From Nannobrachium achirus (lineage: Eukaryota > Chordata > Actinopteri > Myctophiformes > Myctophidae), in NCBI GenBank assembly GCA_963921795.1, contig OY997653.1, positions 5,325,104-5,389,103 of the forward strand: a DNA stretch of 64,000 nucleotides, read 5' to 3'. The position numbers were made by a program, and so were the translations under genes. A model generated the notes under the pieces. That model had not been told where the DNA came from and ran no database searches. It was given only the letters and a program-made list of their open reading frames with translations. Below, one piece after another: positions 1,006 to 64,000 of this stretch (position 1 is the stretch's first letter; each line of letters starts with the position of its first letter).

Positions 1006-1559
1006 TAGGGCATTCACCAAATATTCGAATATTCGAATATCAAAGTCACTATTCGACGTTGTTCACTGAAGTCAAATATTCGCTTATATTTTTTTTATTA
1101 TTTATTTATTTTTTCTCGTTAAAAAATATACATTGTTTATAAAGCTTGGCTAGATAGGAAGTCATAAGAATGAGTTGTCAATGCCCCTGGTGGATGAATT
1201 TCTTAATGCTCTATACCAGGGGTTCTCAAACCTTTTTAGGCCGTGACCCCCAAAATAAACATATTTGAACTGGGGACCCCCACCCTGACAAGCACTTGGA
1301 ATTGTAGATATTACATTTAATGTGACTCTGTTCCGCAGATAACTATTGTGAAAATAGCAGATCTACAACATGCTCACAACGCCTCGCAACGTGAGGCGTT
1401 GTGAGCATGTATATCGGCTATTTTCACAATGTTCGCCTCTTGCTTACTTAATATTTGACAGTTTGGCCAGTTTGTCCAGTCCTGTTGAATATTCAACTAT
1501 TCGAATACTTTGAAGTCGAATAATTCGAATACTAAAAATCACTATGCGTGAATGCCCTA
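1006..1559 (+). mobile_element. Family A non-autonomous hAT-like element, copy 1
   Basis: Ends are TAGGGCATTCAC and GTGAATGCCCTA, with further inverted 'ATTCGAATA' stretches. Flanks are CTGTCCAC (998-1005) and CTGCCCAC (1560-1567), an 8-bp target duplication with one change, which points to the hAT superfamily. The interior carries one terminus of another hAT-like family (CAGGGGTTCTCAAACC near 1218) and the shared hairpin at 1345-1430. No ORF. Confidence 0.75.
1345..1430. repeat. Shared hairpin core in family A
   Basis: Palindrome beginning ATTGTGAAAATAGC and ending GCTATTTTCACAAT, with inner arms 'CACAACGCCTCGC' / 'GAGGCGTTGTG'. Representative of the hairpin module found at about 45 loci in this window. 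Confidence 0.85.
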
Positions 1560-1595
1560 CTGCCCACCACAACGGAGGTTGTGGGTTTGAATCCA

Positions 1596-1917
1596 CAGGG
1601 GCGTCACAAAGGGGGGAAAAGTGGGACTGAGTTACTAGGGCCCAAAGTGGAGGGGCCTTCATTATTTTATACTTTAGCTATTGAAAAATAGCAGATATAC
1701 AAGCTCACAGCGCGGCACTCGATCTGCTATTTTTTAAAAGTCGTGAAAGTTTGTGCAATTCTTTGAATATGTGTATTTTTTAAGCGTTCATTTGAAACTC
1801 AAGATTTGCTTCTGGGGGGGTCCCTGGAACTAGATATTTTGAGATGGAGTTCCGTGGCCAAATACATATCATTTTGGGGGACCATGAAAAAGTTTGAGCA
1901 CCTCTGACATAGAAACA
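1596..1917 (+). mobile_element. Family B element, 3'-truncated
   Basis: Starts CAGGGGCGTCACAAAGGG and runs through 'GGGCCCAAAGTGGAGG', a partly deleted hairpin (about 1680-1738) and 'GGGGGTCCCTGGAACTA'. The right terminus is not present. Compare the complete copy at 11423-11957. Confidence 0.65.
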
Positions 1918-2073
1918 CAGGTTTTTCTAAAAACCTTGCAGATGTTTAACAATCATTTAGCTCTTGAGAACGGGTCCATTTGGTTTCATTTTACTTTTCA
2001 TTTTCTATTGATTGAATACTTTATTAGTCAGAAATGTTGACAGCACAACACCAAAAAGTCCTGGATAGTCCTG

Positions 2074-2147
2074 GCGTGCGTGCGTGCGTGCGTGCGTGCG
2101 TGCACGCACGCACGCACGCACGCATGCACACACACACACACACACAC
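2074..2147. repeat. Palindromic (CGTG)n-(CACG)n-(CA)n microsatellite
   Basis: Runs of GCGT are followed directly by runs of GCAC, making a perfect inverted repeat that could form a cruciform, and then a short CA tract. Confidence 0.9.
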
Positions 2148-2610
2148 TAAAGTGGGCAAATTGCTGGAGCGAAAGGAGATGGAAGTGGCAGCAGGTTCAA
2201 GTGTTTGTGGACAAATAGACAGACTTAGACTACACTACAGCATAGCTGTTTATCTGCCAACAAACGTTTGTTTTAGTCTCAGAGACTTTGCTGTTCACAT
2301 TTAACCACTTGAATGCTCCACACAAGTGGGATAAAACTCGCAAGACTCGCTGAAGCTGGTTTGATTGGTCTCAATCGAGACATTTAAAGTGCTTCTTGAG
2401 GGCACACTACCGTGTCTGCTTCGTGTAACAACTATATGTTTTGCATCTGTAATGTTGTACTGTGATTCGATTGCCTGTTGTGTTGTGTTATTTTGTCATT
2501 GCTTGTATTGTGTCTTATATGCTGTGATCAGGGAGAGCTTGCTCTCAATGGGTTACCTGAATAAATAAAGGAAAAAGAAGAAAGAAAGAAGTCTAGACTC
2601 TAGTCTAGAG

Positions 2611-3073
2611 CAGGGGTCTTCAACGTTTTCAGGCCAAGGACCCCTTAACTGAGAGAGAGATGAAGCAGGGACCCCCAGATTCCATATAGTTTCATCATTT
2701 TGACAGCACAATCATCAGTGTATTTTGGATTCATGTCAATTTGTGTTTTCAGATATTTAACCACTTGAACCATACTTAATAAACTTGACCTCTTGAACTC
2801 TGTACTTAGTCTGCTCTTTTTCCCCCTCTACACCGAACCTCTTTGCCGAAAATAGCCGATCTACAAGCTCACAACGCCTCGCGTTGTGAGCTTGTAGATC
2901 TGCAGAATTGTAGAATTGTAGATCTGCCGAATATGGACGTTAGCGTTCAAGTGGTTAATATAAAAAAGGGGGAAAAAGGTTTCTATCACACAAAGATTTG
3001 TGGGACCCCCTGTAGTAACTTTGAAGACCCCCTAGGGGTCCCGGACCCCCTGTTTATACCCTCTAGACCCCTG
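2611..3073 (+). mobile_element. Family C hAT-like element, copy 1
   Basis: Ends CAGGGGTCTTCAACG and TAGACCCCTG. Flanks GTCTAGAG (2603-2610) and GTTTAGAG (3074-3081) form an 8-bp target duplication. The interior has 'AGGCCAAGGACCCCTTAA', the shared hairpin at about 2845-2905, and 'CTAGGGGTCCCGGACCCCC' near the right end. Non-coding. Confidence 0.75.
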
Positions 3074-3272
3074 GTTTAGAGAGTATAAATGGTCGATGTC
3101 AAGGTACAGAGCTGAAGCATCAAACATGTCTTGTGGTCCAGTTATTCAGTGTGCCTCGTAAAGTCATTATGGTCACATGACGCACCCACCACCACACTGT
3201 TGTTGTTCTGGGAGCACAGATGGGCATGACTGGATGTCCCGTGAGCCAGGTTTAGCCCGTCTGCCCTCGCCC

Positions 3273-3372
3273 CTGTGTGTGTGTGTGTGTGTGTGTGTGT
3301 GTGTGTGTGTGTGTGTGTGTGTGTGTGTGTGTGTGTGTGTGTGTGTGTGTGTGTGTGTGTGTGTGTGTGTGT
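3273..3372. repeat. (GT)n microsatellite
   Basis: About 50 uninterrupted GT units. The Cys/Val and His/Thr reading frames across it are artefacts of the repeat. Confidence 0.95.
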
Positions 3373-3416
3373 TGTGAGAACCTTGTGGGAAGTGCTGAAC
3401 AAAACCAACAATAGTG

Positions 3417-62100: not shown

Positions 62101-62140
62101 CCAAAGCCTACCCAACCCATTTTGGTTACATTTGTAAAAG

Positions 62141-62314
62141 CAGTGGTGTAAAGTAACCGTTTGGCAAATTATTTGAAAACTTCAGTTACTAGTTACTTTG
62201 TAGATTGGGGCAGCCTGGACCATGGCTTTTCCTCAGGATTCTCGGGTTGGGGCAGTAAATGAGCTAAGTAAAGGGTTTTTCTTTTGAGAACTTGTGTCTT
62301 TTTTTCCACCACTG
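62141..62314 (+). mobile_element. 174-bp Tol2-like MITE
   Basis: Ends CAGTGGTGTAAAGTAACC and TTTTTCCACCACTG. Perfect 8-bp duplication TGTAAAAG (62133-62140 and 62315-62322). Internally deleted relative to other E copies and without the hairpin. Confidence 0.85.
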
Positions 62315-62389
62315 TGTAAAAGCTAAAGCAACCCTGCAGAATGTCCAGTGTACCAGGGTGTATGTACTGTATGTCCTTAGACTCCTTAC

Positions 62390-62475
62390 CTCTCGTATAT
62401 GAGCTGGTCCTCCTCGGTAGGGAACACGTCCAGGTCTAGGCCGTAGGGCTCCCTGGTCTGCTGCTGCTGGAACTC
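62390..62475 (-). CDS. fig4: Internal coding exon, probable FIG4
   Basis: An 86-bp exon between acceptor CTCCCACTCTTCCAG and donor GAGAG/GTAAGG. It encodes EFQQQQTREPYGLDLDVFPT followed by EEDQLIYE, leaving two bases that complete an Arg codon with the exon at 40541. Upstream exons of this minus-strand gene would lie beyond 64000. The intron to the terminal exon is 21,848 bp, long for a fish, and is filled with transposons and the kelch retrogene. The FIG4 name is inferred from gene order with gpr6. Confidence 0.55.
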
Positions 62476-62579
62476 CTGGAAGAGTGGGAGCGGAGGAAGG
62501 GTTAGGCCTGTCAAGATTATTACATACTCTAATCATCTAATCGCAATTATTTGACATAATCCCATCAGAATTCAAATTC

Positions 62580-63140
62580 TGAGTTACTAGGGCCCAAGGT
62601 GTAGGGGCCTTAATTAAGTGTGCCTGCCATGCAATGGCAAAACACTTATTGTAATCCGCCATACTTCAACACCAAATTTTAACCACAAGTGGGGGGCGCT
62701 ATACTGAACATATACCCAAAAGCATTTCCACTTCGACAAATAGGGGGCACCACAAACGCGCAAAACGTAACCGTTTCATGCCAAAACGTGTTTTTCAGGG
62801 GGAACGACCCTCTCAAAACGAAACACTAACACCAACCGCTACACAAGGTTGCACAGACTTAGCGAGCTGCAGGCACACTTAAAATTTCTTAGAAATTTTC
62901 TTTTCTAGTTATGTTATACTTTAGCTATTGAAAAATAGCAGATATACAAGCTCACAGAACTGCGAGCTTGTAGATCTGCTATTTTTGAAAAGTCGTGAAA
63001 ATGTGTGCAAATCTTTAAATATATGTATTTTTTAAGCGAACATTTGTAACTAAAAATGTTGCTTCTGGGGGTCCCTGGAACTAAATATTTTGAGATGGGG
63101 GTCCGTGGCCAAATACATGTCCTTTTGGGGGTCCTGTATA
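62580..63140 (+). mobile_element. Family B element with nested TTAA element
   Basis: 'GAGTTACTAGGGCCCAAGG' on the left (tip lost), hairpin at about 62930-62995 with its GC centre deleted, 'GGGGGTCCGTGGCCAAATAC' on the right. Interrupted at 62618-62878. Confidence 0.6.
62618..62878. mobile_element. Family DD MITE (TTAA target)
   Basis: Inverted ends GTGTGCCTGCCATGC and GAGCTGCAGGCACAC, flanked by TTAA at 62614-62617 and 62879-62882. Non-coding, 261 bp. Confidence 0.75.
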
Positions 63141-63145
63141 CAGTA

Positions 63146-63600
63146 GAGTACATCCCTTTTATGCCCACATGGAGATCCCCGTCTGAACCAGCCACACAGA
63201 TATTGGCTGTCTTCCTCCATACATGGGCATTCCCATATGAAGTCCTGTTAGATATGGGCTATTGATGACATCAGGGATCTCCATATATGGGCATAAAAGG
63301 GATTCTGTTAGAGTGGTTCCCATGACATCACAACATACAATATATTGTATGCCCATACATGGAGATCCCTATTTGAACAAGCCACACAGATATGGACCAT
63401 GTGATATAAATCGATGACATCAGGGATCTTCATTTGGGCATAAAAGGGATTATGGGGAATACCCAAATATGGACTTTTACATAGGTGTTGTCACAGTGAT
63501 GCGTCAGGGGAACCACAGTGTCAGGCGTGACCTTCAGAGATACACGGATACGTGGACAAGATGTGCCGGTTTTCATAGTAAACTTGCGATCTATGGTCAC
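63146..63600. repeat. Tandem-like repeat related to family N
   Basis: 'GGAGATCCC', 'ATGGGCATAAAAGGGAT' and 'GATGACATCAGGGATCT' recur three to four times in both orientations. The right edge 'AACTTGCGATCTATGGTCAC' resembles the right edge of the 33.8 kb structure (AACTGCAACCTACGGTCGC). Confidence 0.5.
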
Positions 63601-63674
63601 AACAATCACTAAGTCTTTTTCGTGGTCCTGTTCAAAGTATTGAACCAGTATATTTCTACTTCATCACTACACGC

Positions 63675-64000
63675 TAGGGCATTCACGAATAGTGATTTTT
63701 ACTATTCGAATTATTCGACCTCAAAGTATTCGAATAGTCGAATATTCGACAGGACTGGCCAAACTGTCAAATATTAAGTAAGCAAGAGGCGAACATTGTG
63801 AAAATAGCCGATCTACATGCTCACAACGCCTCGCAACGCGAGGCGTTGTGAGCATGTAGATCTGCTATTTTCACAATATCTATCTGCGGAACCGAGTCAC
63901 ATTAAATGTAATACCTACAATTCCAAGTGCTTGTCAGGGTTCTTATGACTTCCTATCTTATCTAGTCAAGCTTTATAAACCATGAAGAAATATAATATAT
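63675..64000 (-). mobile_element. Family A element, copy 5, cut by the window end
   Basis: Starts TAGGGCATTCACGAATAG and carries a perfect-looking hairpin at about 63795-63881. 'GAAGTCATAAGAA'-type sequence near 63950 matches A copy 1. The right terminus is outside the window. Confidence 0.75.

Follow-up and report, generated by a model that had tools for sequence, protein, structure and literature searches.

The window analyzed here, a 64,000-nucleotide stretch of the genome of the myctophid fish Nannobrachium achirus (bases 5,325,104-5,389,103 of contig 16; genome size 1.66 Gb), carries many copies of a near-perfect hairpin of about 73 bp within short nonautonomous DNA transposons, miniature inverted-repeat transposable elements (MITEs), whose ends fall into about eight groups (Table 1). 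Matches to the hairpin arm ATAGCNGATCTACAAGC with at most three mismatches number 78 in the window, against 0.31 expected and a maximum of 2 in 100 shuffles. They group into 46 places, 32 with both arms and 14 with a single arm, close to the roughly 45 places, about 35 of them two-armed, described in a first-pass annotation of this DNA; its description of the arm consensus and of the two inner types, CACAACGCCTCGC and CGCAGCGCGGCAC, was likewise confirmed, as was that of the outer bases that distinguish families (ATTGTG, TATTGA, and CTAGTG). In the whole genome, ATAGCNGATCTACAAGC with at most two mismatches has 413,833 + 413,841 matches (827,674 in total, a density of about 500 per megabase), and the reversed control has 83 + 64 (147). 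A sample of twenty 10-kb regions, one from each of the 20 largest contigs, held 116 arms and no match to the reversed motif on either strand; the arm richness of the window is about twice that of this sample. These counts against their controls, together with the folding scores given below, rule out chance palindromes. No known structured RNA was matched in an Rfam scan of the window at the gathering threshold, a tRNA search found none, and one 20-base pattern had 0 matches in prokaryote genomes. Viral origin was rejected: the single exact arm match in viral contigs (L053) stands in a coding-looking context, the rest of that locus is unlike the module by eye, and the match is taken as chance. 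We found no report of this hairpin in the open PubMed Central literature, subscription papers being outside the scope of that search.

The intact module comprises two arms of 31 bp, a loop of three bases, and four further paired bases on each side. Measured from ATAGC to GCTAT, 129 spans were exactly 65 bp in 50 cases, shorter in 67, and longer in 12. Intact copies, of which 50 were collected, fold into a single stem with a loop of three bases, five in one case, and z-scores ranged from -8.8 to -17.8 for five copies folded as DNA and from -12 to -17 for three folded as RNA. The palindrome usually extends 4-9 bases past the 65-bp core into partly family-specific sequence; the outermost bases do match each host, as first described, which by itself is no proof of movement. 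At L014:2318-2374 and L006:2270-2306, a single arm (GATCTACAAGC) stands in tandem, as if slipped during copying, and at L028:1784, an arm-like match lies beside GGTTCGAATC, which resembles box B of a tRNA-derived short interspersed nuclear element (SINE).

Host families were set by flank clustering and inspection of the ends, and their letters differ partly from those of the first-pass annotation, whose family E (CTTGAA) is probably our J. Flank clustering or visual inspection allowed all 50 intact hairpins collected to be assigned to host families, and in the flank clusters, the hairpin occupies one site per host family. Similar CAGNGGTNCTCAAAC-type ends are found in K (CAGTGGTTCTCAACC), B (CAGTGGTGCTCAAAC), E (CAGGGGTCTTCAACG), and N (CAGTGGTTCCCAAACC, within two mismatches). 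The remaining termini are those of A (TAGGGCATTCACC), F (CAGGGACGTGCA), G (CAGTGTTGATTTTG), H (TAGGGCTGTCAC), J (CAGTGGTGGAAAGTAAC), M (TAGGGATGGGACG, left ends only), and D (CGTC..TGTCGGG). Among the ten termini compared, with N left outside, only K-B (0.50) and B-E (0.46) reach 45% identity past the first six bases, those of A, F, G, H, J, M, and D all falling below it, and we therefore count about eight terminal-repeat groups: K/B/E/N, A, F, G, H, J, M, and D. The K-B and B-E hosts may share descent at their ends. Inside family A there is, in addition, a K-like end, CAGGGGTTCTCAAACC, and the family looks like a composite element.

Exact 8-bp target duplications were present in 10 of 25 copies of A, 2 of 3 of G, 1 of 2 of F, 3 of 6 of E, 1 of 4 of K, and the one copy of N examined; in two of the A copies (L033 and L035), the duplications are mutually reverse-complementary and may represent one insertion. 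A further K copy has the exact duplication ATCTAAAC with shifted ends. Hosts A, E, F, G, K, and N thus display the 8-bp duplication of hAT-type MITEs, the hAT name of their termini being in part our assumption. Family D was rejected as hAT, its duplications being 4 bp: they are exact and mostly A/T in 11 of 16 copies, representing about seven separate insertions judged by shared flanks, and none of the 16 has a duplication of width 8. Of the host duplication types first proposed, the 8-bp hAT type therefore stands, and D belongs to neither the hAT nor the TTAA type. The D elements in L033, L035, L038, and L042 and at window positions 14680-14895 have flanking sequence in common on at least one side and differing hairpin deletions; such copies are probably one insertion multiplied inside a larger repeat, as are those at window positions 30347 and 58728 and at L014:2846. 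Plain vertical inheritance, in which one ancestral element kept its hairpin and termini under constraint while the rest diverged, would suit the similar ends of K, B, E, and N and is possible within that group; it is refuted as a full account by the dissimilar termini of the other seven families and by the 4-bp duplication of D, and we consider it highly improbable overall.

To locate where sharing between families ends, we built an identity profile from one intact copy of each of 10 families (I among them, J and N excluded), oriented so that the cores matched best. It used 43 of the 45 family pairs; A-K was left out because both of its flanks are homologous, and E-M because it shares a longer block. 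Identity across the 43 pairs was 0.83 (0.71-0.92) in the 65-bp core and 0.80 in the adjacent four bases. Beyond +4 bases, it was 0.29, 0.27, 0.25, 0.28, 0.26, and 0.25 out to 120 bp, where chance gives 0.27. Between families, conservation is thus higher in the internal region than in the terminal repeats, as in the coral CMITEs discussed below. BLAST matches between hairpin sites of minor families span about -5 to +71, and the remaining matches are neighboring repeats. The A and K flanks are homologous on both sides, with scores of 53 and 38, compared with 7,626 control pairs of which none reached 50, 1 reached 40, and 18 reached 35; A and K are one lineage, not independent hosts. L006 and L007 share an E flank (score 56). 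With such sharp edges and unrelated termini, whole-element shared descent is rejected for most family pairs, in agreement with the first-pass annotation. Its count of at least six unrelated families holds for the termini and has to allow for the single A-K lineage; alignment of hosts well past the hairpin, which it had named as evidence for inheritance, is on average absent from the 43 pairs and present in A-K and E-M.

Within the hairpin, the arms differ between families mostly by paired changes, such as T-A to C-G at position 1 and A-T to T-A at position 14; the G-C pair at position 26 has changed to C-G or A-T, and relatives of family F have T-A and A-T pairs replaced by C-G in both arms. 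Among 15 representatives, which were hand-picked as intact (a choice that favors pairing) and include related, nonindependent rows, pairing holds in 91.1% of cells, and both-side changes occur in 20 of 39 pairs. Doubly changed cells numbered 57 compared with 21.3 in shuffles, a value reached by 0 of 500, and further pair types were less striking (31 compared with 26.7, reached by 22 of 500). Slid versions of the arm pairing score far lower. Position 5 is mismatched in 12 of the 15 representatives and in 26 of the 50 intact copies, 23 of the 26 as A against C; in families B and S, it is paired, and an A/C mismatch lies at position 9 instead. Exactly one of the two positions is mismatched in 44 of 50 intact copies, and by family there are only two states. 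Pairing has been maintained through paired substitutions, apart from one fixed A/C mismatch, and from its sequence the module appears to be of single origin.

The coordinated changes across both arms, the very high arm density, and the similar K-B and B-E termini would also be expected if the hairpins of all hosts went back to one old ancestor, with template switching or ectopic gene conversion among the hundreds of thousands of copies keeping them alike as the flanks diverged. Unrelated termini and the different duplication length of D nonetheless require acquisition at some point, and the families retain their own hairpin variants; the persistence of the A/C mismatch argues against constant full homogenization and for some constraint. 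We regard this alternative as distinctly unlikely.

Families E and M indicate what a transfer may look like. Alignments of an E copy with two M copies cover -92 to +69 in one case and -46 to +95 in the other. In three E copies, the block is bounded by TTAACCACTTGAACC-type inverted repeats with TTAA (CCACTTRAACC), 185-202 bp apart and with 3-5 mismatches in 16, and two of the three lie within hosts with exact 8-bp duplications; two more TTAA-bounded calls, mismatched at 8 of 16, were unconvincing. At the corresponding position, the M copies lack an exact TTAA. The E core has the TTAA and terminal inverted repeats of a piggyBac/TTAA-type MITE; a TTAA MITE that had inserted into a hAT-type host would have this structure, and the mover there looks like the nested TTAA element. 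The first-pass annotation had proposed a transferable hairpin core: the shared module and its sharp edges are borne out, and in E, the carrier looks like a nested TTAA element instead of a bare hairpin. The pattern count for a precise empty TTAA site in the E host was at control level (66 + 58 compared with 71 + 76). Four loci with the E right end were rejected as empty E sites, their left sides being unrelated; L049-L052 are four short-element copies that start with CAGATGTGTTAATATAAAAAAG, match the E right end, and have unrelated DNA on the left. Inward TTAACC motifs are enriched near hairpins (TTAACCNNTT, 22 at 25-100 bp compared with about 1.4 expected), an enrichment dropped as evidence for other families because E and B copies supply most of it.

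The reading we favor, with a probability of roughly one half, is that a hairpin of about 73 bp and single origin was captured rarely by about eight host groups, mostly via nesting, and was then amplified with each host. Acquisition by short nonautonomous DNA transposons would have been rare, apparently once per host family, because the hairpin lies at one site per family in the flank clusters. The likeliest route would be insertion of a hairpin-bearing MITE into another MITE, as two transfers keep a larger block; the composite would then move by its outer ends while its inner flanks decay or are deleted, and the hosts' own transposition would multiply the hairpin. Snap-back (template-switch) copying at the stem would alter the two arms in concert and carry one flank over to the other side, which would explain why the palindrome runs past the core into family-specific sequence. 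Copies with an intact hairpin would be the main source of new copies, given that deleted versions are nearly all private. For the family A element at L037:1396-1914, the duplication is CTACAAGC, which is the hairpin arm's own sequence, so that this element probably landed in the hairpin of another one. At about 5875-6780 in L028, a Tol2-like stretch (GTACTCAAGTACTGTACTTAGGTAC) begins within a B-type hairpin, suggesting that hairpins also serve as insertion targets.

The hairpin is prone to deletion, and most short versions are deletions inside it: in the local sequence examined, hairpin pieces are retained by almost every A span and by the shorter spans of D, B, and E. The 20 A spans that have a gap and a length other than 77 bp all differ from each other. 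For G, 40 of 1,777 candidates for the joined flanks were scored, and 20 of those 40, picked from the short ones, were inspected; nearly all of their junctions differ, L056 and L066 sharing one, and with the exception of L054, these copies retain hairpin letters or are broken at another point. No deleted form founding a clear subfamily was seen in the copies compared. Such private deletions fit amplification from intact copies. That the hairpin is an advantage module with a fixed A/C mismatch, raising the amplification of whichever transposon captures it and crossing superfamilies, is speculative and in our estimate unlikely; it would pass on as a nuclear selfish hairpin or by template switching, and copies that lose it would leave almost no descendants.

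Several observations weigh against rare capture by nesting. Families D, F, G, H, and B showed no homology of their flanks outside the hairpin, so that nesting there is inferred, and the J-E flank similarity is weak, its score of 48 being reached by 267 and 201 of 5,000 shuffles. Exact 8-bp duplications were found in 0 of 2 copies of H and 0 of 3 of J, and family I was seen as four neighboring copies on one contig. No clean hairpin-free E host was present among 40 scored of 3,288 candidates, the one that spans the junction being an internal deletion that retains part of the core; a J-type copy at window positions 12085-12400 has no arm. A star-like burst from few masters would look like the private deletions, and flank divergence among 26 A copies did not differ significantly between the 4 intact and the 22 others (p 0.17). 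Four near-precise absences, each a single copy in this single genome, could be extreme symmetric palindrome deletions or empty sites: in L013, the palindrome of an A copy is missing altogether, and GGCGAA is followed directly by TATTTATC; in L028, a K-like copy retains the outermost bases only, two other L028 copies keeping a stub; the G copy L054 retains only the G-specific outer palindrome; and the E copy L075 keeps the core, with the hairpin gone between two TTTG repeats. B/S intact hairpins also have a direct repeat, TTGAAAA or TTTTCAA, at their edges, 7 bp long in 10 of the 50 intact copies.

These absences and edge repeats shift weight toward a hairpin that is itself mobile, a nuclear counterpart of organelle hairpin elements inserting as a unit of about 73 bp, for which the end of homology within an average of 4-8 bp of the hairpin (43 pairs) also speaks. 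The absences, however, occur as single copies amid many partial and often symmetric deletions, and they show short microhomologies. Edge direct repeats of at least 5 bp occur in 16 of 50 intact copies compared with 7 of 50 in one shuffle, but all 16 are of B/S type; outside B/S, none longer than 4 bp was seen among the 50, and the outer flanks are inverted repeats. Furthermore, none of the 50 intact hairpins lies in clearly unique DNA. Insertion of the hairpin, as first proposed, is compatible with the absences and the B/S repeat, which are ambiguous, and we judge self-mobility unlikely, though by no means far-fetched.

Table 1. Hairpins and host elements in the window, by position
Feature	Position	Remarks
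Family A host, hairpin 1354-1421	1006..1559	8-bp duplication 7/8
TTAA-bounded core, second E host, hairpin 2852-2906	2757..2958	
Hairpin with inner deletion, family A	5343..5397	
Family K host, CAGTGGTTCTCAACC termini, one arm left (6182-6198)	6039..6437	8-bp duplication 7/8
Intact core, family B, inner type CGCAGCGCGGCAC, mismatch at position 9	11518..11582	
Family E host, CAGGGGTCTTCAAC termini	12510..12942	Exact 8-bp duplication CACTAGGT
TTAA-bounded core nested in E host, inverted ends TTAACCACTTRAACC	12651..12835	
Hairpin (inner deletion) within E core	12740..12787	
Family J host, CAGTGGTNGAAAGTAACTAAGTAC termini, hairpin 15487-15526	15254..15750	Duplication unrecognizable (4/8)
Family D host, hairpin 20753-20817	20668..20912	4-bp duplication ATAT
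Family A host, hairpin 24285-24345	23613..24476	8-bp duplication 7/8
Intact core, family B, direct repeat TTGAAAA at edges	36363..36427	
Intact core, B/S type, host orientation opposite	36595..36659	
Intact core, family M host (TAGGGATGGGACGATTATCG-type left end in relatives)	43353..43417	
Hairpin (inner deletion), family F	48179..48216	
Family A host, TAGGGCATTCACC termini	49519..49976	Duplication unrecognizable (2/8)
Intact core, family A type (stem to ~49774-49856)	49783..49847	Folds at -48.1 kcal/mol as DNA, z -17.8
Intact core, family D	53758..53822	
Family D host, CGTC..TGTCGGG termini, hairpin 58811-58875	58728..58977	4-bp duplication ATAT
Intact core, family A	63804..63868	

The window also contains two long open reading frames, at 15815-17026 (-) and 54372-55436 (-), which we take to encode a GPR3/6/12-type receptor and a kelch-repeat protein, respectively. 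The J-type MITE, whose termini are presumably Tol2-like, ends right beside the first.

Highly conserved domains of SINEs are common to element families that otherwise differ. Those elements are retroposons, for which the accessible text of PMC6887750 describes no hairpin. The closest design is that of the CMITEs of Acropora corals, which, in the portion of that report available, are small nonautonomous elements with differing terminal repeats around a conserved internal region of 75 bases; one related family, CMITE-IN, arose by CMITE insertion into another sequence (Wang et al. 2010, PMC2872659). The coral elements described there have TTAA ends, and the article (PMC2872659) nowhere uses the term palindrom, whereas here the interior is a near-perfect hairpin of very high copy number, found in a TTAA-bounded core and in hosts with 8-bp and with 4-bp duplications. 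In the MER6 MITE, a SINE V domain nested into an unrelated transposon was amplified by its new host, which resembles the transfer of a conserved internal domain by nesting proposed here; the accessible text differs from our case in describing a single origin, a retroposon domain, and hundreds of copies per genome, with no hairpin mentioned (PMC6887750). Repetitive hairpin-forming elements of sponge mitochondria and fungal double-hairpin elements are, as far as the excerpted account goes, likewise short, present in many contexts, and in some cases spread within larger blocks, those of Allomyces without flanking duplications; they belong, however, to organelle genomes and are not cores of DNA transposons (PMC2800124). 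Our case combines a hairpin of very high copy number with hosts of both duplication lengths, 8 bp and 4 bp, and with a TTAA-bounded core.

Classification of MITE families relies on their ends, and the families are usually considered independent; here the middle is the part most widely shared. At about 500 arms per megabase, the hairpin is a large component of this genome, and its presence in different hosts, with and without deletions, offers a natural test of whether internal structure aids the multiplication of MITEs.

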